Assembly (NCBI GenBank): GCA_027023105.1
Contig: JALVWY010000062.1
Location: 1 to 47,382, forward strand
Length of the DNA stretch: 47,382 nucleotides
Direction: 5' to 3'
Origin: Campylobacterales bacterium
GTDB taxonomy: Bacteria; Campylobacterota; Campylobacteria; Campylobacterales; Nautiliaceae
Positions 9,234 to 27,013 of the stretch are shown piece after piece. The notes below the pieces were generated by a model. The model saw only the letters and a program-made list of their open reading frames with translations, made no database searches and was not told the DNA's origin. Both the position numbers and the translations under genes were made by a program. Each line of letters opens with the position of its first letter. The stretch's first letter is position 1.

Positions 9234-12200
9234 TTAACGTGTACTAATAGCATTTTTTTGCTGTTCTTTTATTTGTTTATCTTCGATTTTATCGGTTTTT
9301 TGTTCTTTATCATGGTGTGCATGCACACCGCTTGTATTTTGCAACTGTTGTTTTTGCTCTTGTGTATTTGCAAAAGCTTTTGCTATTTCGTATGCTTTTT
9401 CTTCTTGCGTTTTTGTTAAGTTTTCAAAATCTTTTAGGTCTTCTATCAAAACTTCTTTGTCAAAATCTTCTTGTGTATATTCTAATGTAGAACGTTTTTG
9501 TTGTTCTTTTTGTACTTGCTCTTTTAATTCTTGTTTGTTTGTTGTAAAAACTTGTACATCTTCTTTGTGTCGACTTAAAGCAACATATGCAAGGTTAAAT
9601 GTGTTCATATCTTTGTATTTTGTATCTAGTACGGCAACTACTTTTTTACTTGTTGTTCCTTGTGATTTATGCGCAGTTATTGCATAACCTAAATCAAATT
9701 TATCATATGCTTTCGGATTAAATTCAACCACATCTCCGTTTTCTTTTTCTACCTTTAACATATGTTTTTCTTTATCATATTCTTTTACATACCCTAATTC
9801 TCCGTTAAAAACCCCTAAATCTCGGTTATTTTGCAAGAATACAACTTTGTCGCCTTTTGCAAATTTTTGTGTCTCTTTTGTATATATTTGTAAATCAAGT
9901 GCATTTTCTTTTAGGTCGATTTTTACTTCGTTATTATCTTTGTCTTTTACAATAATTTTATTATTAATTTCGTCAATTTCGCTTATTTCATATTCTTTAA
10001 ATTTTTCAAGTGTTTTTATATTTTTGTTAGGAATAATAACGTCTTTACCAGGTTCGTAATTTCCTGCAACCATTTTCGCAGAAGGAGATAAATTTTTAAT
10101 AACTTTAATGTTAAATGTATTTTCGTCTTCTCTCAAGCCCAGATTTGCTTTAACTTTTTCGTTTATTTTATTTACAATCTCTCTTGTTGCTGCAACTGCA
10201 AGTGTATTTTTAACATCTCGTGCAATTTCTTTTGCTGCAGAAGTTGTCATTTTTTCTAAACTCTCCGCCCTTGCTGCTTCGTATGCTTGCTTATATTCAT
10301 CTATATTTTTAAAATCTTTTGCGTCAACTTCAACTTTAAATTCTTTTACTTTATTCAACTTATCGAGCATATCAAGCCCTTTTGAAACATTTTTTTCTTT
10401 TGCAATTGTGTCTACAATCTCTTTCATTACTTTGTTGTTTCTTTGTCTTACAGACTCATCAACCTTTAATACTTTTGTATTTTGCTTTAAATCTTCAAAA
10501 AAATTACCTGCTCCGATTGATTTTAACTGCTTGCTATCTCCCATAAAAACCACTTTAATATCGTTTTCTTTTGCGTATTTAAGAAGCTTATTTGCTTTTC
10601 TTGCGTCTAACAAGCTTGTTTCGTCTACTATCAATATTTTTTGTGTTTGTTTTTGTTCTTTATCTATTTTTTTGCTTACATTGTTTGCAATATCTTGTAT
10701 TTTTTCTGCTTTTGCTTGTTTTACAGGTGCATAACTATTTAGTTCTGCAATAACTTTTTTATCTTTTTTAACTTGTTCTACTTCTTTTAATAGATTTTGT
10801 TTTTTTAATTTTTCCTGTAAAATGATATCATCCGCTTTTTTTTCTAGTGCTTGTAATTCTTTTTTTGCAGCTTCTTTTTGCAGATTTTTAGAATTTGTAA
10901 CTTTTGCTAAAGCTTTTAAGCCTTTTGCTTCTTTTGTAAGAGTTTCTGCCGCTTTTAAGTCTTTTTCCACCTGGTGTGCATGCACACCGCTTTGTTGTTT
11001 ATAATTTTTAGGAGCTTGGTTTGTATGTTTATTGTTGTTTAAAAAGAATTCTAATTTAGTCTGTTCTTTTTTATGTGCGTCTATCAATTTGCTTGTTACA
11101 ACTGTTCTTGTTTTTTTGTTAAAAATCTCTTCTCTTGTAACTGTCGCAGTAACATATTTATTTTCTTCTAACCGATAAGAAATTTTTGTAGTTTTAAGTC
11201 TTTTATCTAATTCTATTACATTATGTTTAATATCTTTTGCTTTTACCTGCAAGATTTTATCTTGTTTGTTTTTGTAAACATCTTTTGTATAGTTTGTTTT
11301 TACAAGCAAATTTTTAGTTAAGTTTTTAATAAGTCCTGTTTCTTTTGTTTTATCTATTAAATTGTTGCTAATTTCCTTACCTAAAAAGCTTTTTCTTGTA
11401 TGTGTAATATGTTTAAGAACATTGCCTTTTTTATCTGTAATTTTTAAACTTTCTTTTGTAATTTTAAATCCTAAAATATTAAATTCTAACGCTCTTCTTT
11501 TATATTTACCACCCGTTTTTGTTTGTGCAGTTTTACTATTGTAACTTAGACTTAAAATTGCAGCAACACTTAATTTGTATCTGCTTTGTTTTGTATATTT
11601 ATCCTTGTGTGTTTCTTGTTTGTAATTAAGCAATCCTAACACGCTGCCTTTTGCGTTTTTGCTGTACAATCTTTCTTTATCTGCTGTTAAAATATTGTTT
11701 GTGTGTGTCTTGTAACCTAAAATATTACTTAAAGCTATATGTTTTCCTAAAAATTTGAATCTTAAGGGGCTAAACTCTTCAAATTCATATTCGATTTTTG
11801 TTCCGTCCCTAAACTTACTTACACTTTTATAGGTAAATGTATCTCCCTTAAAACTGCGATATTCTGTTCTTTTTACGCCTTTTGCATTATCTTTATAACC
11901 CTTTTTAAAATCTATTTGTCTGTATCCTGTAAAGTTATTGCCTATAAAATCAACATCTTTAAATCTTGTCAAAAACGCAAAAGGTGTTCTGTTTTTAAAG
12001 TCTTCTGCTTTTACATAGTATTTGCTGTCTAAACGTCTAATATTTGTTCTTTTTAAACTAAAATCATCTTTGTTGTAATTTTGTTTTTGCTGTGCAGGTT
12101 GGTGTGCATGCACACCATTTTGTTTTTGTTGCTGTTGTACAATATTATCTTTTGTTTCTTTTTTTGTTGTTTTAGGAGTGGTTGAATTGTGTCTTAAGTC

Positions 12201-13988
12201 TTTTAATTTGTTAATATCTATTTTTACAGGCTCTTCTTTTTTATTTACCGATAAAGAAGAGTTGTTATCATTTTGGTGTGCATGCACACCGCTTTTTTGC
12301 TGTTCAAGCTCTTTTATTTTTTCGTCTATATATTTATTAGTTACATCTACAAATCCGTTTTCGTTTTTTGCTATATATTCGTTTTCTTCTTTTGCTTCTT
12401 TTTCTAAACTTAATAAAAAGCTGTCTATCGTTTTACTTTGTATACCGCTTGCTTTAACTGCTTCAGAAGCCGCTTTTCCGGTAGGAGTTAAAACCTGTAT
12501 ATCAATCTCTTTACCTTCTTTTTCTAAACTTTCTCTTAATGCGTCTAATAACGTTGTTTTACCAACTCCCGCACTCCCTTGTATTGCTATAAATTGTTCA
12601 TTACTTGTTAAAATACCCACCACTGCTTCTCTTTGCTCGTTTGTTAGATTAAAACCTTTTCCTTGTTCGTAATTGTCTATTAATTTTTCTGCTGTATCTT
12701 TGTCTGTTAAATTCTCAAAAGTTTTTTGATGTTTAAGTATTTTTATATTTTCTTTTTCTAAGCCATGCATCTCTTTTGTTGTGAAATTTTTATCGTTAAG
12801 TTTTTTTATTTCATACCCGTGTTTTTGTCCTGTTTTTTTAACTTTGTTTAGTTCTTCTTCTAAATCCTCTATACTGTAATTTCCTAAACCAATTTCTAAT
12901 GCTTGTTGTAAGAGTTCGTCTTTTGTAAACGTAGATTCATTTTGCGTTAAAATTTTTGCAGATAGTTCTAAAACTTCTTTTGTACTATATTTAAACTCTT
13001 CTTGTTTTTCTGCAGCTGCTTGTATGTTTTTTTGTAATTCCTCTAAACTTGTAATACCTTTATACTCATGCTGCGCTTTCCATTCATTTTTTAATTCTTC
13101 TCCTGTAATAAGTTCACTTTTATCACTTTTACTACTATGCTGCGCAATTACGTCTAATTTTTCTTCATTCAAATTTTCAAAATTTACATTACTTTTTAAC
13201 TCTTTTTTCGCCTGTTCTATTTGCATATGTCTTTTACTGAAATTATTTAAAACATCTTCTGTATATCCCGCAATCTCAAATTTTCCGTTCCCTTTCGCTT
13301 CAATTGCGTATCCTAATTCTTTAAGGTTTTTAGCAAGTTCACTTTTATAAATTTTATCTATCTTGCTTTGTTGTTTAAATATTTCTAAAAATTCGACTGC
13401 TTTAAATTTATCTTTATTTTCGTTATAAGTAATATTAAAAATAAGAGCGTGTGTGTGCAAATGCGGGTCTTCCGCTTCTCCCGGTATCGGACGAGCGGTA
13501 CTGTGTTGCACTTTTGCAACAAGCATATTGTTTGTATTTACACGCTCTCTTACATATTTGCCTTCTTCATCTTTTATAAGCTCTCCGTTTTCATTTTTTT
13601 TATATTCTCTCGTTTGAATTGCATTTTCTTCTATGTATTTAAGTGCAGCTTCTACTGCTTTTTGGTGTGCATGCACAACACGTTCATCCCCGAGCACTAG
13701 AGCAGCATGAGATACGCTTTTAGGAGCGGCAAAAGGCATATCAACAACTGCAACTCTTTTATCGTTCCCACCGCTTTGTACAAGTTCTGCTCCCGATAAA
13801 GGGTCTTTACCCTCTAATAGGCGCTCAAATGTTTCTTTATCAACTTTTTGTCCTTCTCTTAGACCTAAAACTTCCGCTAATTTACCGCCATATTCAATAT
13901 TTTTCCCCTCTCCATTCGCATTAAAGATTGGGTCTTTTTCGTAGTAATAGTTTTTCGCTGCTTTTGCTGTTACTTTTAAAGCTTTCAT
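9234..13988 (-). CDS. MOBF (TrwC/TraI-like) relaxase-helicase
   Basis: N-terminal Tyr cluster NYYYEKD; His triad PHLHTHALIFN; Walker A GSAGVGKTT; Walker B ILIVDETSLLDA; C-terminal YAITAHKSQGTT..YVALSR. Confidence 0.95.
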   Translation of the reverse strand: MKALKVTAKAAKNYYYEKDPIFNANGEGKNIEYGGKLAEVLGLREGQKVDKETFERLLEGKDPLSGAELVQSGGNDKRVAVVDMPFAAPKSVSHAALVLGDERVVHAHQKAVEAALKYIEENAIQTREYKKNENGELIKDEEGKYVRERVNTNNMLVAKVQHSTARPIPGEAEDPHLHTHALIFNITYNENKDKFKAVEFLEIFKQQSKIDKIYKSELAKNLKELGYAIEAKGNGKFEIAGYTEDVLNNFSKRHMQIEQAKKELKSNVNFENLNEEKLDVIAQHSSKSDKSELITGEELKNEWKAQHEYKGITSLEELQKNIQAAAEKQEEFKYSTKEVLELSAKILTQNESTFTKDELLQQALEIGLGNYSIEDLEEELNKVKKTGQKHGYEIKKLNDKNFTTKEMHGLEKENIKILKHQKTFENLTDKDTAEKLIDNYEQGKGFNLTNEQREAVVGILTSNEQFIAIQGSAGVGKTTLLDALRESLEKEGKEIDIQVLTPTGKAASEAVKASGIQSKTIDSFLLSLEKEAKEENEYIAKNENGFVDVTNKYIDEKIKELEQQKSGVHAHQNDNNSSLSVNKKEEPVKIDINKLKDLRHNSTTPKTTKKETKDNIVQQQQKQNGVHAHQPAQQKQNYNKDDFSLKRTNIRRLDSKYYVKAEDFKNRTPFAFLTRFKDVDFIGNNFTGYRQIDFKKGYKDNAKGVKRTEYRSFKGDTFTYKSVSKFRDGTKIEYEFEEFSPLRFKFLGKHIALSNILGYKTHTNNILTADKERLYSKNAKGSVLGLLNYKQETHKDKYTKQSRYKLSVAAILSLSYNSKTAQTKTGGKYKRRALEFNILGFKITKESLKITDKKGNVLKHITHTRKSFLGKEISNNLIDKTKETGLIKNLTKNLLVKTNYTKDVYKNKQDKILQVKAKDIKHNVIELDKRLKTTKISYRLEENKYVTATVTREEIFNKKTRTVVTSKLIDAHKKEQTKLEFFLNNNKHTNQAPKNYKQQSGVHAHQVEKDLKAAETLTKEAKGLKALAKVTNSKNLQKEAAKKELQALEKKADDIILQEKLKKQNLLKEVEQVKKDKKVIAELNSYAPVKQAKAEKIQDIANNVSKKIDKEQKQTQKILIVDETSLLDARKANKLLKYAKENDIKVVFMGDSKQLKSIGAGNFFEDLKQNTKVLKVDESVRQRNNKVMKEIVDTIAKEKNVSKGLDMLDKLNKVKEFKVEVDAKDFKNIDEYKQAYEAARAESLEKMTTSAAKEIARDVKNTLAVAATREIVNKINEKVKANLGLREDENTFNIKVIKNLSPSAKMVAGNYEPGKDVIIPNKNIKTLEKFKEYEISEIDEINNKIIVKDKDNNEVKIDLKENALDLQIYTKETQKFAKGDKVVFLQNNRDLGVFNGELGYVKEYDKEKHMLKVEKENGDVVEFNPKAYDKFDLGYAITAHKSQGTTSKKVVAVLDTKYKDMNTFNLAYVALSRHKEDVQVFTTNKQELKEQVQKEQQKRSTLEYTQEDFDKEVLIEDLKDFENLTKTQEEKAYEIAKAFANTQEQKQQLQNTSGVHAHHDKEQKTDKIEDKQIKEQQKNAISTR
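9314..9329. repeat. 16-bp palindrome GGTGTGCATGCACACC
   Basis: Perfect palindrome, exact copy. Confidence 0.95.
10973..10988. repeat. 16-bp palindrome GGTGTGCATGCACACC
   Basis: Perfect palindrome, exact copy. Confidence 0.95.
12101..12116. repeat. 16-bp palindrome GGTGTGCATGCACACC
   Basis: Perfect palindrome, exact copy. Confidence 0.95.
12275..12290. repeat. 16-bp palindrome GGTGTGCATGCACACC
   Basis: Perfect palindrome, exact copy. Confidence 0.95.
13664..13679. repeat. Variant palindrome GGTGTGCATGCACAAC
   Basis: One mismatch to the 16-mer; encodes VVHAHQ in the relaxase domain. Confidence 0.85.
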
Positions 13989-14233: not shown

Positions 14234-15295
14234 ATGAAAGGAAGAATTATGCAAACAATAATTCCAAACACAAAAATTGACGAAGAATTAAGAAAAGAAA
14301 CATTCGACATTGACAGGTCAATCGATTTATTTGTAGAGCAAAACAACAGGATGACACATCCTTTAAAAACAGAATTCGACTTCTTAAAATGGTTAGATGA
14401 AGGTAGATTAGTAACAGTAGGTGGTGGTAGCGGACTTGGTAAAACAGCTTTCGTTTTACAAATGTTATATGAATTAGTAAGAGACAATCAAGACAGGGAA
14501 GACAGTGTGATTGGTATTTACGCAAGCGCAGAAATGATGATTGAAGAATTAACTATGAGATTAATTGTTAACCAGGAGGTATTAGAAAATGTAAACATGC
14601 TTAATGTAAGAAAAATTTTTAATAAAAAACTTACAAGCCCAAAAAAACTTGAAGAATACAAAAATAAAGCAAAGTTCATTTTAGGCAGCATACCGTTTTA
14701 TTTTTTAAATGCAAGTAAATTTAACTTAAATAGCATAATGCAATTAATCAAAAAAACAAGAAAGAAAAATCCTGATAAAAGAATTTTTGTTGTAATAGAT
14801 TATTTGCAGCTATTATTAGCAGAAGTTGATAGTTTGCCCGAAATGAATAGAGCTATAAAAGCACTTAAAGATTGCGTAATAGAAAACAAAGCAAATGCAA
14901 TTATAATTTCTGCGTTAAACAGAGATGCAATAAAAAATAATTATGTAGATATGAGCGCTTTTATAGGCAGCAGCATGATTGAATATACAAGCGATATAGC
15001 TATATTATTTGCATTTAAAAATGATAAAGGTAAATATACATTAAAAATTGATGAAGAAAAAAGAAATGCTAATGAACTAGAGTTTTATGCTTATTGCGTA
15101 AAAAATCGTATAGGACAATTGTTTAGCAGCAAATTAATTTTTAACAAGTTGCAACAACGATTTACAGTTAATCCGGTAAAAGTTATAACATTAACACAAG
15201 AGGAGTTTGAAAAACAAGAAAAAAGTGCAACAAGTGTAACAGAAAAACACGATAAAGAAAATCTAAAAGATTTGACATTTCTTGACATTATATAA
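14234..15295 (+). CDS. DnaB/RepA-like hexameric helicase
   Basis: GGGSGLGKTAFVLQML Walker A; RIFVVIDYLQLLLAE; IGSSMIEYTSDIAILFAF; VKNRIGQ. Confidence 0.8.
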   Translation: MKGRIMQTIIPNTKIDEELRKETFDIDRSIDLFVEQNNRMTHPLKTEFDFLKWLDEGRLVTVGGGSGLGKTAFVLQMLYELVRDNQDREDSVIGIYASAEMMIEELTMRLIVNQEVLENVNMLNVRKIFNKKLTSPKKLEEYKNKAKFILGSIPFYFLNASKFNLNSIMQLIKKTRKKNPDKRIFVVIDYLQLLLAEVDSLPEMNRAIKALKDCVIENKANAIIISALNRDAIKNNYVDMSAFIGSSMIEYTSDIAILFAFKNDKGKYTLKIDEEKRNANELEFYAYCVKNRIGQLFSSKLIFNKLQQRFTVNPVKVITLTQEEFEKQEKSATSVTEKHDKENLKDLTFLDII

Positions 15296-18690: not shown

Positions 18691-18832
18691 TGACGTCACA
18701 GTGACGTCAGGTCTGCAAAATGTGACGTCAAAGTGACATCAAACAGTGACATCATTGTGACGTCAGTAATTTTTGTTTTACGCAAAAACCTTGAAATCAA
18801 GGGCGGAAAAACTTGACGTCATTGTGACGTCA
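18691..18832. promoter_or_regulatory. Array of eight TGACRTCA palindromes in four 11-bp-phased pairs
   Basis: 18691/18702, 18723/18734, 18747/18758, 18814/18825. Confidence 0.9.
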
Positions 18833-18937
18833 CCTCATTTCTTTCATTTTTTTCAACTTTTTCAATTACCGGTAAAAAAAGACACAAATGAGGTTGCAAA
18901 ATCTCTATCAAAAAAACAACAAAAAAAGGAGATAGAA

Positions 18938-19129
18938 ATGCCTAAACTTGTAGAAAATAAAGCAAAAAAAGTGGAGATAATAGGAGTAAGAGTGAATGCA
19001 AGTTTCAAAAAAGAACTTGAAGAGTTTGCTAAAAAAATGGGTGTATCTTTAAGCGATTTTATACGTCTAACTATGCAAAACAAACTTCAAAATCTTAAAA
19101 AAGGAGACAAAAATGTATTTATTGATTAA
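18938..19129 (+). CDS. Ribbon-helix-helix (CopG/Arc/TrwA-like) protein
   Basis: VEIIGVRVNASFKKELEEFAKKMGVSLSDFIRLTMQNKL; AAAGGAGAT RBS. Confidence 0.75.
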   Translation: MPKLVENKAKKVEIIGVRVNASFKKELEEFAKKMGVSLSDFIRLTMQNKLQNLKKGDKNVFID

Positions 19130-19301
19130 AGGAAAAGAGCTAAAAATAGAAAAAATGTTGAACGAAAATGGGAAAACAATTGTAGAAATTTTTATAGCAG
19201 ACAGTATTGAATTACAAGCAAACGAAAACGTAAAAATTGAACAAAAAATTGTAGATAACCTGCTTGTTATAGAAGCAAAAAAAGGAGAACAAAATGAATG
19301 A
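19113..19301 (+). CDS. Small hypothetical protein
   Basis: 62 aa, overlapping start and stop with neighbours. Confidence 0.6.
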   Translation: MYLLIKGKELKIEKMLNENGKTIVEIFIADSIELQANENVKIEQKIVDNLLVIEAKKGEQNE

Positions 19302-19917
19302 GATTGCAAGATTAACAGTAAGAATGTCGAACGATTTAAAAAGCAATTTAGAAAAATTTGCGGAACAACACAACACAACTTTGAATGCCTTAATAACAGA
19401 AACCTTACAAGAGAAACTAAAAAATAGTAATCAAAGTGCAAGCAATAAGAATATTAAAAGCGAAAAAGATAACAACGAAAATTTCGAAATACTACAAGAC
19501 AAAGTTGATTTCCTTTTACAACAACAAGAAAAATTAAAAGAAGAAATCAAACAAGAAATGCAAAAAGAAATACTAGAAGACTTTAAAATTTTTGCAAATG
19601 TTTTAGCTAAAAAAATACAAGAAATTTTTGCGAAAAATATAACAAATTATCTAACAATCAAAAGACCTTTAGTGTTTGAAGCTGTAAAAAATTTTGCAGA
19701 ACAAAATAAAAAACCTTTCTTGCAGCAAAACGACTTAATCGCAGCAATAGACTCTTTTCAAGAAACAGCAGAATTAAAAATTTACAAAATTTTAGAAGCA
19801 GAATCCTACAATAATATTAAAGCAGTAAACATAAAAAATGAACAAGAAAAAATAACAATAGACCTTACAAACAAAGTTCATTATTTATCTCTTCTTCAAA
19901 TTTATAGAAAAATTTAA
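19294..19917 (+). CDS. RHH N-terminus plus coiled-coil protein
   Basis: ARLTVRMSNDLKSNLEKFAEQHNTTLNALITETLQEKL then coiled coil. Confidence 0.65.
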   Translation: MNEIARLTVRMSNDLKSNLEKFAEQHNTTLNALITETLQEKLKNSNQSASNKNIKSEKDNNENFEILQDKVDFLLQQQEKLKEEIKQEMQKEILEDFKIFANVLAKKIQEIFAKNITNYLTIKRPLVFEAVKNFAEQNKKPFLQQNDLIAAIDSFQETAELKIYKILEAESYNNIKAVNIKNEQEKITIDLTNKVHYLSLLQIYRKI

Positions 19918-19964: not shown

Positions 19965-20106
19965 CCTATAACACAAAGTTAAACAAAAGTGAAGCGGTGG
20001 TTTTTATTCGCATAGTTGCAAAAATAAAAAATAAAAGGAGACAGTTATGAGAAAACTAATTTCAAGTTTAGCGATAGTATCAGTTTTAGCAATAAGTGCA
20101 AGTGCA
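19965..20106 (+). repeat. Promoter, 5'UTR and signal-peptide cassette copy 1
   Basis: 19999-20106 identical to 24530-24637 (108 bp); looser similarity back to CCTATAAC at 19965. Confidence 0.9.
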
Positions 20107-20745
20107 GCAACAGTTAGCAATCAAGTTGTAGGTACAACAGCAACATTTGTGGTCGGAGAAATTGCAGGTAATTCAAGTCAGGTAGGTATTAATTTAAAAC
20201 ATTCAGAAATCTTAAAAACAAGCGAGAATTTATTTTTAACAGGTGCATTAGATTTTACAGCAACACAAGATTATCAATCAATTTCAGCACCTCTTACATT
20301 TAATTTTTACGGGGATTTTGCACATAAAAACGCAAACGGATTTTTAGATTTCACAGGTGTTAACGTTTATCCGTTTGTTAGCAGAATTAAAAATGTAGAC
20401 ACTAAAAACAAACAAAATTTTGGCGGAATCGGTTTAAGCACAAATCTTGTTTTACAATACAAAAACGAAAAAATTGCAGATGTGGAAATTGGCGGAGAGA
20501 AAAGTTTGTTTGATAAAAGCACACATAAATACGCAAACCTTTTTGTAAAAATAAATGTGCCTCTACAAGACAATATTACAGCATATTTTCAGGTCGGTAA
20601 AACATTCCTAACAGATAAAATTGCAAAAACTGTAACAACTACAGACAATAACAGTATAGGAGATACTACAACAACTACAACTATAAAAGAGCCTACATCC
20701 ACAACAGAAAACACTTTCTTATTAGGGGTTAGTTATTCATTTTAA
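20047..20745 (+). CDS. Outer-membrane beta-barrel-like protein
   Basis: Signal peptide MRKLISSLAIVSVLAISASA; C-terminal LLGVSYSF. Confidence 0.65.
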   Translation: MRKLISSLAIVSVLAISASAATVSNQVVGTTATFVVGEIAGNSSQVGINLKHSEILKTSENLFLTGALDFTATQDYQSISAPLTFNFYGDFAHKNANGFLDFTGVNVYPFVSRIKNVDTKNKQNFGGIGLSTNLVLQYKNEKIADVEIGGEKSLFDKSTHKYANLFVKINVPLQDNITAYFQVGKTFLTDKIAKTVTTTDNNSIGDTTTTTTIKEPTSTTENTFLLGVSYSF

Positions 20746-20777: not shown

Positions 20778-21341
20778 ATGACAGAAAAAAGTTATAACAA
20801 AGATTTACAAGGCGCAAAATCTTTTAGTTTGTGGCTCACAGACTTTACAATTAATCTCAAATTCTACACTTACATTCTAACCTTAAGCGCAATTCTAGGG
20901 CTTGTATTTACATTATTGTTAATTATTTTCAAAGAAGATTGGTTTGTAAAAGCTCACGCTTTAACAATGTTTATTAAAAGCATTTTTGCAGGTAAAACTA
21001 TTTATATACAAGATATAAACGCAAACGTTTCCGCACAAGAAGCAAGAAAATTTTATGAGCATTTACTTTTACAGGAAAAATTCATAGTAGCAAAAATACT
21101 TGCAGCTTATATGTTTAGCTTTTTTGCAACGTTTATTATTTCCTATAAATTGCTTGCAAAAAAAGTTACAAAACATACAAAAGAATTTCAAAAACCTGAA
21201 TTCTTACGAGGTACAAATGTAATAGATGTAGAAAAATATGCAGAGCTTCAAGGTAAAAGAAAAGTTGAAGGTGTTGTTTTAACTAACCTAGAAGCAGAAG
21301 AAGTTAAAAAAGCAATTGAGGAGGTTAAAAATGCTAAGTAA
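20778..21341 (+). CDS. Coupling protein N-terminal membrane subunit (split T4CP)
   Basis: Two TM segments then EFLRGTNVIDVEKYAEL, typical TraD/TrwB N-terminal 'RGt' region; overlaps ATPase ORF. Confidence 0.65.
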   Translation: MTEKSYNKDLQGAKSFSLWLTDFTINLKFYTYILTLSAILGLVFTLLLIIFKEDWFVKAHALTMFIKSIFAGKTIYIQDINANVSAQEARKFYEHLLLQEKFIVAKILAAYMFSFFATFIISYKLLAKKVTKHTKEFQKPEFLRGTNVIDVEKYAELQGKRKVEGVVLTNLEAEEVKKAIEEVKNAK

Positions 21342-22680
21342 AAATAAAAAAATAATGCTAAGCTATAATAGCTTAAATCAGCATACCTTAATAATCGGGC
21401 AGTCAGGGGTTGGTAAATCAGTCTTACTTAAAAGAATTTACACTCAATTAAAAACTCAAAACACAGGTGTCTTCGTAGTTCACGACATTAAGGGCGACTT
21501 CATTCAACAGTTTTACAATCCCGAAACAGATTACATTCTAAATCCGTTAGATTCAAGAAGTATAAACTTAAATATATTTAAGTTAATAAAAACAAAAGCA
21601 GACATAAAAGCAGTTGTAGCTGCACTTATACCGGAAGCAAAAGAAGCAAAAGAACCCATCTGGGTAAATAGCGCAAGAGACATTTTTGAAAGCATTATTT
21701 ATCTTGCAATACACAATTTTAAAACAGGTAAAATTGAAAAATTAGATAATACTGTAATTAAAAATTACATACAGGAAGGTATTGCATTTTTAGTAGAAAA
21801 CTTTAAAGATTTAAAAGAATGCAGCAGAGGTTATGCTCACTTGCAAGCTTACAAAACAAGCTCTCAGCCTGCAAATATTTTTTCAAATTTTCTATCTTAT
21901 ATGACCTTGTTTGACGTTGTTGCAGAAAACAAAAACCCTGAACTTGATTTAAAAGAATTTATACAAAAACAAAACGGAGCAACGATTTTCCTTGCTAACT
22001 ACAACAACATTAAAGATTTTGTAGCGCCTTTATTAAGCCTTTTTGTAAATGCGCTTGTAAGAGAGCTCCTAAGTTTAGAAGAAAACTTAGACAGAAGAAT
22101 GTTTCTCTTCCTGGACGAACTTACAAACCTGCTAAAAATTGACAAAATTTTAGACTTCCTTACACTTGCAAGAAGTAAGGGAGGAGCGGCATTTTTAGGT
22201 TTTCAAGACGTAAAAGCACTTGAAAGAATTTACGACAAAGAAGGTGCAGAAACAATTGTTGCAAACACTGCAAATAAAATAATTTTGAGGGTTGGAGATG
22301 TTTCAACTGCAGAATACTTAAGTAAATTAATAGGCGAACAGGAAGTTAAAATAGTAAACAAATCACACAGCGTATCGCCTTTTGACAGAGACAGCGTAAG
22401 TTACAGTACACAAATCCAGCGCAGACCTGCGGTTTTAGCAAGTCAAATTACAACCTTGCCAACCTTGCATTTTTATTTAAAAACGCTTGAATTGCCGGAA
22501 TGGACATACGTTCCAAATGCTTTTATTCCAAGCCAGGATAAATATCCTTTAACACAACCTAAATTACAGCTAGTAGATACATTTAACATCAATTTCAGTT
22601 CTCAAAAAGCACAATCTTTTGCAGACAATATTTTATTAACAGCTGCACAAGAAGAAGCGGACGAAGAAGAAGTTTTATAA
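21331..22680 (+). CDS. Type IV coupling protein ATPase (TraD/VirD4-like)
   Basis: HTLIIGQSGVGKSVLLKRI; DIKGDFIQQFYNPETDYILNPLDSRS; PIWVNSARDIFE; MFLFLDELTNLLKI; GFQDVKAL. Confidence 0.9.
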   Translation: MLSKNKKIMLSYNSLNQHTLIIGQSGVGKSVLLKRIYTQLKTQNTGVFVVHDIKGDFIQQFYNPETDYILNPLDSRSINLNIFKLIKTKADIKAVVAALIPEAKEAKEPIWVNSARDIFESIIYLAIHNFKTGKIEKLDNTVIKNYIQEGIAFLVENFKDLKECSRGYAHLQAYKTSSQPANIFSNFLSYMTLFDVVAENKNPELDLKEFIQKQNGATIFLANYNNIKDFVAPLLSLFVNALVRELLSLEENLDRRMFLFLDELTNLLKIDKILDFLTLARSKGGAAFLGFQDVKALERIYDKEGAETIVANTANKIILRVGDVSTAEYLSKLIGEQEVKIVNKSHSVSPFDRDSVSYSTQIQRRPAVLASQITTLPTLHFYLKTLELPEWTYVPNAFIPSQDKYPLTQPKLQLVDTFNINFSSQKAQSFADNILLTAAQEEADEEEVL

Positions 22681-23199: not shown

Positions 23200-23577
23200 A
23201 TGGACGGATTCAATCATCATTTTAACGGCTTTCAAAATACCGAAAACCCGGTAAAAATTGAAAGCGCACATGAAGAAAACACAGGTGGTGTGCATGCACA
23301 ACAGCAGCAACGCACAACACGCAGAAAAAAAAGCAAAAAAGACAAGCTCAAAGAAAAACTTGAAAAAAAACTGCAAGAGCTTCGCAAAATTGAAGAAGAA
23401 AAGAAAAAACTTGCGCAAGAGCTTAAAAAAATAGAAGAACAAGAAAAAATAGAGCAAGACAAAAAACTTGCAAAAGCAGCAAGAGAAGCGTTTATCAAGG
23501 GCTTAACAGAAGAATCATTACATCAATTAAAACAAAAAATCCAAGAAATTTTAGGAGGCGAAAATGAAACTTATTAA
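23200..23577 (+). CDS. Basic coiled-coil protein with GVHA palindrome
   Basis: TTRRKKSKKDKLKEKLEKKLQEL..; CCTATAAC motif at 23153. Confidence 0.65.
   Translation: MDGFNHHFNGFQNTENPVKIESAHEENTGGVHAQQQQRTTRRKKSKKDKLKEKLEKKLQELRKIEEEKKKLAQELKKIEEQEKIEQDKKLAKAAREAFIKGLTEESLHQLKQKIQEILGGENETY
23287..23302. repeat. Variant palindrome GGTGTGCATGCACAAC
   Basis: One mismatch to the 16-mer; encodes GGVHAQQ in ORF 23200-23577. Confidence 0.85.
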
Positions 23578-24475
23578 AATCATCTTAACCGCTTCTCTTC
23601 TTTTTTTTACAGGTATTGCTTTTGCAAACGATTATAGTGCAGGAAGTAGCCAAAATTTAGGAAATTCCGCAGAAAAAAATATTAACGCAAAACAAGGTAC
23701 AGAAAGCAAAGTCAGTAAAAATGTAAGAAAAAGTAAAACTAAAACAAAATCAAAAGAAAAACAAAAAACGGTAGAATTAAGTACATTTGAAGCCGCAAAT
23801 ATTTTGTATAAATTAGAAGATTTAGAAAATGCAAATGTATATCCATTTGATGTTTGTAAAGTATTAACAAATCCAAAACTTCCTGAAAATTTTGGAATTA
23901 CAAGTGAAGAAGCAGACGGTATCTATAATCCAACATACGCAGAACTGCTAAATAAAGCAGCACAAAGCAATGCGCCTTTAAGCGTAATTTTAGACAGACA
24001 AGATATCTACAGACTTAAAGATTATCTCAATTGCCTAGGCTATTACGGCGCTATAACAGCACAGGCTTTAAAAAGCGGTAAATTAAACACAAAAATAACA
24101 GACACCCAAATAAAAAGACAATACAACAGATTTAAACGTAATCTCGCAAGAGCACGTTGCAGATTTGCAGGCAGTACAGATACAATAAACTGCAGAAATA
24201 TTTTTGTAAAATTGTCTTACGACCCCGTCCTAGAAATGAACGGAGTAAAACTTTTTGATACAAATACACATACGTTTTATGCTTATACAAGCACAACACG
24301 TAAAAGTATAACTTACAGCACAAGACTTGCATTAGAAATGCAAAAATCAAAAGAGAAAGGATATACAGACACAACTGCATTAGATACAACTGTTAGCAAA
24401 AAAGCAACAAGCAACACAGAACAAAACAACAAAGCTGAATTTAGTATGCGTGATTGGTTAAAGTTTAACCATTAA
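23564..24475 (+). CDS. Secreted hypothetical protein
   Basis: MKLIKIILTASLLFFTGIAFAND signal peptide. Confidence 0.65.
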   Translation: MKLIKIILTASLLFFTGIAFANDYSAGSSQNLGNSAEKNINAKQGTESKVSKNVRKSKTKTKSKEKQKTVELSTFEAANILYKLEDLENANVYPFDVCKVLTNPKLPENFGITSEEADGIYNPTYAELLNKAAQSNAPLSVILDRQDIYRLKDYLNCLGYYGAITAQALKSGKLNTKITDTQIKRQYNRFKRNLARARCRFAGSTDTINCRNIFVKLSYDPVLEMNGVKLFDTNTHTFYAYTSTTRKSITYSTRLALEMQKSKEKGYTDTTALDTTVSKKATSNTEQNNKAEFSMRDWLKFNH

Positions 24476-24496: not shown

Positions 24497-24637
24497 CCTA
24501 TAACAGGGTTGTTAAACAAGTGTAGCAGAGGTTTTTATTCGCATAGTTGCAAAAATAAAAAATAAAAGGAGACAGTTATGAGAAAACTAATTTCAAGTTT
24601 AGCGATAGTATCAGTTTTAGCAATAAGTGCAAGTGCA
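24497..24637 (+). repeat. Promoter, 5'UTR and signal-peptide cassette copy 2
   Basis: 24530-24637 identical to 19999-20106. Confidence 0.9.
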
Positions 24638-25651
24638 AACAATTTTAACACTACAAATTCTTACGATATAAAAGCACAAGTTAATAATAAAAAACTTGTC
24701 AAAATAGGCGCAATAACGGCGGGAGTGCAACATTATTTGTTTACGTATTTAGGGAAACAAAAAAATTTTTCTGTAATTAGCTATAAACATTTTGTTAATT
24801 TTTATGATACTTTAGTATATCACAAACCAAAACAATTTGGTAAAGAAGGTACTACCGATTTTCTGCCTACAACAATTTTTAATGATTTGCTGCTTTATGA
24901 TGATAACGGCAGTTTTAATAAGTTAAAATACTCTCATTTGTTGCAATATCAATTTATTGATACAAGTATAGAAATTTTGCAAGCAAAAGGTATACCTACT
25001 AATTTAACATATACCGTTCAAAAAATTGTTGGTAAAACAGCAGTAACTATTACTTTAAATATACAACAAATTTTAGCAAAGTATGCAGAATTTCTAATGT
25101 ATTTAAAAAGTTTAAGCAACAACAATCCTCAAAAATTTAACGACATTTTTCAAAGATTTGCAGTATTTCTATTTTATAACGACGGTTTAAGCTACTACAA
25201 ACCATTAGAGAAAGTAATTAATAAAGAAACCGTAAAAGCTATATGCTTAACTGATAGAATTGTTGAAGACCCTTTCTCACCGCTTGATTTTGTCGCCATG
25301 ATATTCGGAGATTATAGGGGATATAGCAGAACTTTTCTATCTGGACGTGGAGAAATAGGAAAATTTGTAAATTATGTATTAGCGGGAGAAAAAGAAAAAG
25401 CAGCAAAACTATTCTTAAATAATAAAAGAATTGAACAAGAAAGAAATTTTTATAGAGATGAATTAGCAGCAGCTGCAAAGCTTGATAGCATTTACATTCC
25501 TCTACCTGATAAGTTTGCAAAAATTATATACAACAAAGCAGATGAAGCATTAGAAAAGCTACCTAATACATACAAACAAGAAGGATTACCAAGAGCAAAA
25601 TATATAGAAGGAATAGTAAAGCTTAGAAATCTTATTGCAGAAGGGAAATAA
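24578..25651 (+). CDS. Secreted hypothetical protein, 357 aa
   Basis: Same signal peptide as 20047 ORF, unrelated mature part. Confidence 0.7.
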   Translation: MRKLISSLAIVSVLAISASANNFNTTNSYDIKAQVNNKKLVKIGAITAGVQHYLFTYLGKQKNFSVISYKHFVNFYDTLVYHKPKQFGKEGTTDFLPTTIFNDLLLYDDNGSFNKLKYSHLLQYQFIDTSIEILQAKGIPTNLTYTVQKIVGKTAVTITLNIQQILAKYAEFLMYLKSLSNNNPQKFNDIFQRFAVFLFYNDGLSYYKPLEKVINKETVKAICLTDRIVEDPFSPLDFVAMIFGDYRGYSRTFLSGRGEIGKFVNYVLAGEKEKAAKLFLNNKRIEQERNFYRDELAAAAKLDSIYIPLPDKFAKIIYNKADEALEKLPNTYKQEGLPRAKYIEGIVKLRNLIAEGK

Positions 25652-26992: not shown

Positions 26993-27013
26993 AAATCCCC
27001 CTCGCCGCACCAT
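26993..27013 (+). repeat. attR core AAATCCCCCTCGCCGCACCAT
   Basis: Exact 21-bp match to 107-127; marks the change to chromosomal genes. Confidence 0.93.

Follow-up and report, generated by a model that had tools for sequence, protein, structure and literature searches.

What can occupy the helicase of a conjugative relaxase between its two nucleotide-binding motifs, and is an enzyme so interrupted likely to work? The question is raised by one gene in contig JALVWY010000062.1 of a Campylobacterales bacterium (Nautiliaceae), positions 1 to 47,382 of which are called the window here. A preliminary description of these letters placed Walker A near aa 470 and Walker B near aa 1115 of the encoded protein, took the interval 10640 to 12545 between them to be a large insert within the relaxase helicase, and proposed that a domain had been inserted with or between palindromes near its sides. 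The interval is indeed the stretch between Walker A and Walker B; its coordinates and residue numbers are correct, the motifs starting at aa 468 and 1118. The gene and its main parts are as follows.

9234 to 13988, minus strand: MOBF relaxase-helicase, 1,584 aa (PF08751 TrwC, 8.7e-67; AAA_30, 1.3e-39; SH3_13; Viral_helicase1; NF041492 MobF, 4.4e-61)
13053 to 13988, minus strand: trans-esterase (relaxase) domain, about aa 1 to 312, with invariant Y14 and H162/H178/H180
12552 to 12587, minus strand: Walker A AIQGSAGVGKTT, aa 468 to 479
10659 to 12398, minus strand: insertion, aa 531 to 1110 (580 aa), from the alignment with 20 relaxases of the order
10602 to 10637, minus strand: Walker B ILIVDETSLLDA, aa 1118 to 1129

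The protein contains the parts that define a MOBF relaxase, namely a TrwC-type domain with the catalytic Tyr and the HUH His triad and, toward the C terminus, a RecD-like helicase of the SF1B class in which motifs I, Ia, II, III, and VI are present. The NF041492 match is above its cutoff, and the helicase half, of which there is one, also matches AAA_19 and UvrD_C_2. Motif Ia (TPTGKAA) starts at aa 501, GDSKQL (motif III) at aa 1150, and TAHKSQG at aa 1438, and a match of the SH3/2B type (SH3_13) is retained C-terminal to Walker B. The N-terminal HUH trans-esterase (Tyr, His triad) and C-terminal SF1B helicase are shared with TrwC of R388 and TraI of F/R1, and similarity to the TraI structure 5n8o extends over aa 7 to 260, 339 to 529, and 1117 to 1514. 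The residues that are invariant across nine relaxases are all kept, including Y14, H162/H178/H180, K477, D1122/E1123, Q1154, and R1473. Because the catalytic Tyr, the His triad, and the helicase motifs are intact and the reading frame is open, the relaxase is likely to be a working enzyme. The 1,584-aa protein contains no Cys at all; several other relaxases of the order contain none or one, perhaps in connection with the secretion of these proteins.

Relaxases of the same order provided the measure of the insertion. PF08751 was present in 29 of 400 genomes of the order (28 above the family cutoff), and 20 relaxases were extracted for comparison, including one that is cut off by the end of its contig. 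The aligned site at aa 530 to 1110 holds 580 residues here versus 5 to 10 in all 20 other MOBF relaxases, including a paralog from the same genome (G000:C47), which gives a net excess of about 575 aa. The insertion begins past the helix T-I-D-S-F-L, which follows motif Ia, and stops right before the Walker B strand. The spacing from Walker A to Walker B is 647 aa, versus 60 to 90 aa in the 20 relatives, in agreement with the earlier expectation that these motifs normally lie within roughly 100 aa of each other; the usual spacing, which does not define the MOBF family, is thus not found here. A Walker B misread in place of an earlier motif II is excluded, as D1122/E1123 align with a DE pair that is invariant in eight further relaxases, ILIVDET matches the DEA/DES motif in all 20, and no motif II was missed. 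No homologous insert occurred among the MOBF relaxases examined. Compared with TrwC and TraI, the present protein differs in having 580 aa from motif Ia to Walker B. F TraI, which spans 4.3 kb, owes its length not to an insert at this site but to a vestigial helicase between the trans-esterase and the active helicase and to 2B-like domains inside 2A. The best plasmid MOBF matches were also shorter, with a Nostoc relaxase covering query residues 1 to 1482 within 2.5 kb, and none of the best 5,000 plasmid records covered 80% of the relaxase query. The insertion is real and exactly placed, and by these comparisons it is unique within the sets searched.

Several other origins can be weighed against these data. 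The relaxase and the element that carries it come from a single draft genome (1.29 Mb in 179 contigs, 89.75% completeness), and an assembly chimera fusing two genes might be suspected in such a draft; however, the frame is continuous, third-position GC in the insert core (0.20) is similar to that of the surrounding parts (0.11 to 0.23), and the repeats present are merely 16 to 18 bp, which makes a chimera highly improbable. Neutral or decaying insertion into a relaxase that no longer works is consistent with the single occurrence and with the lack of MOBF relaxases in the other seven genomes sampled from the genus. It appears very unlikely, as all of the invariant catalytic residues are kept and the stretch is genuinely coding: given its base composition, 580 codons free of stops would arise by chance with a probability of about 4e-24, and its third-position GC resembles that of the flanks. 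The position of an in-frame insertion next to a nucleotide-binding motif recalls an intein or other protein-splicing element, but the features of an intein were not found: Pfam gives no intein match, the full-length protein has no Cys, and the site is a variable loop rather than a conserved motif, so that this origin has next to no probability.

The insert itself includes the following parts, delimited by composition and by AlphaFold2 prediction.

12291 to 12413, minus strand: predicted helical arm 1, aa 526 to 566, ending at the first palindrome within the insert (single-sequence AlphaFold2, pLDDT about 50 to 65)
11034 to 12071, minus strand: orphan basic domain, about aa 640 to 985, delimited by composition, with no family or homolog (AlphaFold2 pLDDT 35.5)
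10644 to 10970, minus strand: predicted helical arm 2, aa 1007 to 1115, running into Walker B (single-sequence AlphaFold2, pLDDT about 50 to 70)

Between the first arm and the basic domain, aa 567 to 630 form a Q/N/K-rich linker that carries two palindrome copies. The core had been described as basic, strand-like, and of unknown family, and this agrees with the analysis: aa 631 to 1000 have a net charge of +45 (83 K/R, 38 D/E), the core is partly beta-rich, and no relative was found. AlphaFold2 without an alignment gave a pLDDT of 35.5 for the core and 42.9 for the whole insert; above noise in these models were only a predicted beta meander at aa 677 to 740 of the basic domain and the helical arms, whose predicted helices (aa 526 to 566 and 1035 to 1115) reach both edges of the insertion directly. 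At a pLDDT of 35 to 43, the basic domain could be given no fold, and the models were too poor for a structure-based search. A multiple alignment with viral-contig relatives, intended for better prediction, was discarded, as Walker A fell inside the insert.

Searches for homologs of the insert revealed no recognizable relative. Pfam gave no family match for the basic domain, PHROGs yielded no homolog (one weak match, E of 0.2), and no relative was found in the PDB or among phages and viral contigs. Against plasmids, the insert alone gave no match even at an E of 1. No homolog was present in 60 related genomes, 400 genomes of the order, or 299 of the phylum, about 500 related genomes being covered overall. 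Matches at E values of about 0.002 to 0.01 over 55 to 120 residues were judged to be due to chance or unconfirmable as relatives; the recurring weak matches sit in orthologous 183-aa frames of one genus.

In SF1B helicases the pin is normally a tiny hairpin, and in UPF1-like SF1 helicases large 1B/1C accessory domains are carried on stalk helices that arise from domain 1A. The present arrangement may be likened to that of these eukaryotic RNA helicases, to which no sequence similarity was found. The insertion lies where domain 1B lies, within domain 1A and between motif Ia and Walker B, and its site coincides with the pin/wedge domain 1B of RecD2 and Pif1, just before Walker B. In a pairwise comparison of RecD2 (3e1s) with the paralog, the hairpin region between TVHRLL and LIVDE falls at the insertion site. 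In human PIF1, domain 1B comprises residues 280 to 300, between the Walker A Lys (K234) and the Walker B Glu (E307) (PMC6451128); it is thus about 20 residues there, versus 580 with an orphan domain here. The RecD2 pin is located in 1B, and its loss leaves ATP hydrolysis in place but abolishes unwinding (PMC8469786). The active helicase of F TraI lacks the RecD2 pin loop, which may be supplied by the vestigial helicase, and strand splitting at the vestigial helicase is merely suggested in the structure paper (PMC5422253). As the present relaxase has a single helicase, so large a module where the pin would lie makes a notable arrangement.

On these grounds, we consider the protein to be probably a functional MOBF relaxase-helicase with an accessory module of about 575 aa at the 1B site, for which binding of DNA at the fork or of the displaced strand is the likeliest role (probability of about 0.5). 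The models suggest an arm- or stalk-shaped insert in which two helical arms and flexible Q/N/K-rich linkers would hold the basic domain out from domain 1A, so that it would stand beside the duplex-splitting or DNA entry site. There, as its charge and position suggest, it would bind fork DNA or the strand being displaced and might thereby aid unwinding or processivity; such an effect is likewise proposed as part of the likeliest role. A domain this basic might just as well attach to the coupling protein, RNA, or a membrane.

The gene is carried on an integrative element of 26.9 kb, some features of which bear on these possibilities.

107 to 27013: integrative element with direct repeats at both ends, at tRNA-Leu
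367 to 1632: tyrosine integrase
21316 to 22680: coupling protein, TraD type

The 21-bp direct repeats (AAATCCCCCTCGCCGCACCAT) are found at 107 to 127, where tRNA-Leu(gag) (40 to 126) has its 3' end, and at 26993 to 27013. Integrase, att direct repeats at a tRNA, and relaxase, all of them present here, are together the features that define an integrative mobilizable element. The element is probably mobilizable rather than self-transmissible because a VirB4-type gene of its own was not recognized among the element open reading frames scanned, a scan in which divergent small components would be missed. Also encoded are a DnaB-like protein, ribbon-helix-helix proteins, and several envelope proteins. 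The DnaB-like helicase (14234 to 15295) is short, at 353 aa, and lies beside a 267-aa family-less protein with which it could form a replication module. Two adjacent ribbon-helix-helix-like proteins (18773 to 19129 and 19294 to 19917), with weak RelB/MobA/DDP1 matches, are candidate relaxosome accessory proteins. Two otherwise different putative secreted proteins (20047 to 20745 and 24578 to 25651) have identical first 20 residues (MRKLISSLAIVSVLAISASA), and an outer membrane beta-barrel protein (1725 to 2279) is encoded close to the integrase. An LPP20-type lipoprotein and the gene order pheST-aroA-ispH-rpsA would fit a campylobacterotal host.

With a TraD-type coupling protein of its own in the element, the insert might instead serve type IV secretion, either as a recruitment domain that docks the relaxase to the coupling protein or as a passenger that travels into the recipient. 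F TraI has 2B-like domains inside 2A (PMC5422253), and the translocation signal TSA of F/R1 TraI lies in such a 2B-like domain inserted within the helicase fold, likewise nested in a relaxase helicase with a new role (PMC3912908). However, TSA is nested in 2A/2B, whereas the present insert is at 1A/1B; similarity to TSA was not detected, and the usual SH3/2B-type match is still present after Walker B. A secretion role is accordingly unlikely, and an accessory module at the 1B site remains the preferred reading.

The second peculiarity of the gene is a 16-letter palindrome, GGTGTGCATGCACACC, that occurs six times, four times exactly and twice with one mismatch, always within the element. Five copies are in the relaxase gene and one is in the open reading frame at 23200 to 23577.

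12275 to 12290: exact, codes for GVHAH(Q) at aa 567
12101 to 12116: exact, codes for GVHAH(Q) at aa 625
10973 to 10988: exact, codes for GVHAH(Q) at aa 1001
9314 to 9329: exact, codes for GVHAH(H) at aa 1554, in the C-terminal tail
13664 to 13679: one mismatch, codes for VVHAH(Q) at aa 103 (103 to 108), in the relaxase domain
23287 to 23302: one mismatch, codes for GVHAQ in the plus-strand open reading frame 23200 to 23577

A search allowing up to three mismatches found these six sites in the 1.29-Mb genome, and the reversed-letter control found none; the chance expectation in the window with up to two mismatches is 0.01 matches. The copies at 13664 and 23287 are an identical plus-strand 16-mer (GGTGTGCATGCACAAC), with 18 nt shared, although their genes lie on opposite strands. 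The occurrence of one plus-strand 16-mer in oppositely oriented genes points to copying or constraint at the DNA level, and GVHAH as a peptide motif was rejected as the main reading. All six copies are read in the frame giving GVHA(H/Q) or VVHAH; the two alternative frames each encode Cys, which the relaxase lacks altogether, and this can account for the shared frame. At aa 103, the copy falls within a helix that is conserved in the relaxase domain, where other relaxases have R-x-AH-x-x-A, and is therefore not an inserted sequence. A widespread genomic repeat was rejected, as exact copies were absent from the remaining 399 genomes sampled in the order. A 17-mer form occurred in 23 stretches, as single sites, over 85,462 species, and one GC-rich viral contig matched the palindrome. 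Literature searches with the palindrome letters returned nothing, and GVHAH gave only unrelated titles.

Do the palindromes explain how the domain arrived? The claim that they lie near the sides of the insert stands in part, as the copies at 12101 and 10973 bracket the orphan domain; those at 12275, 12101, and 10973 are, however, inside the insertion and not at its outer edges. Insertion of a domain with or between the repeats is not supported, in view of the copies at aa 103 to 108, at aa 1554, and in the gene at 23287, and of an insertion that outruns the palindromes on both sides (aa 531 to 566 and 1007 to 1110). In a narrower form, the orphan domain would have been captured as a cassette through recombination between two copies acting as domain-exchange joints. 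Copies at aa 625 and 1001 do bracket the basic domain, and the palindrome is absent elsewhere in the genome. Yet the insertion reaches about 100 aa beyond on each side, further copies lie at aa 103, 567, and 1554 and in another gene that has no insertion at its copy, 16 bp is little for homologous recombination, and DNA inserted in frame survives in linkers whatever its source. A sister element lacking the domain was not found for comparison, because the closest coupling proteins in 150 genomes of the order were only 34% identical and the open reading frame at 23564 to 24475 had no relative in 100 genomes. We regard cassette capture as quite unlikely, and the link between palindromes and insertion is weak: two copies bracket the orphan domain, but the four others are off its edges. 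The palindromes are best explained as a separate DNA-level repeat of the element that is tolerated mostly in linkers.

As to their function, our best guess is that they are candidate binding sites for an element-encoded dimeric protein, for which the ribbon-helix-helix proteins are candidates, or a minute mobile repeat. With respect to a parS-like centromere, no ParB domain was found among the element open reading frames scanned, and ribbon-helix-helix proteins are present. Small intragenic mobile repeats are covered in PMC2229807. Rickettsia palindromic elements and other small mobile sequences in coding genes likewise consist of short palindromes that recur in frame within coding regions, whereas the repeat here is only 16 to 18 bp, with six copies confined to one mobile element. 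The palindromes thus provide a clean case of a very short DNA repeat limited to one mobile element and lying within its coding sequence. A bolder proposal, that they are joints (or factor sites) for domain capture or exchange and that the basic domain is a recent capture re-engineering strand separation, is very unlikely; if true, it would mean that domain capture alters strand separation in a conjugative helicase.

The best reading of the relaxase is that of a new form of MOBF enzyme with an enlarged domain 1B accessory domain. How strands are split by conjugative helicases without an obvious pin is an unsettled matter, and a relaxase whose only helicase bears so large a basic module where the pin would lie is a direct natural test of the capacity of that site.
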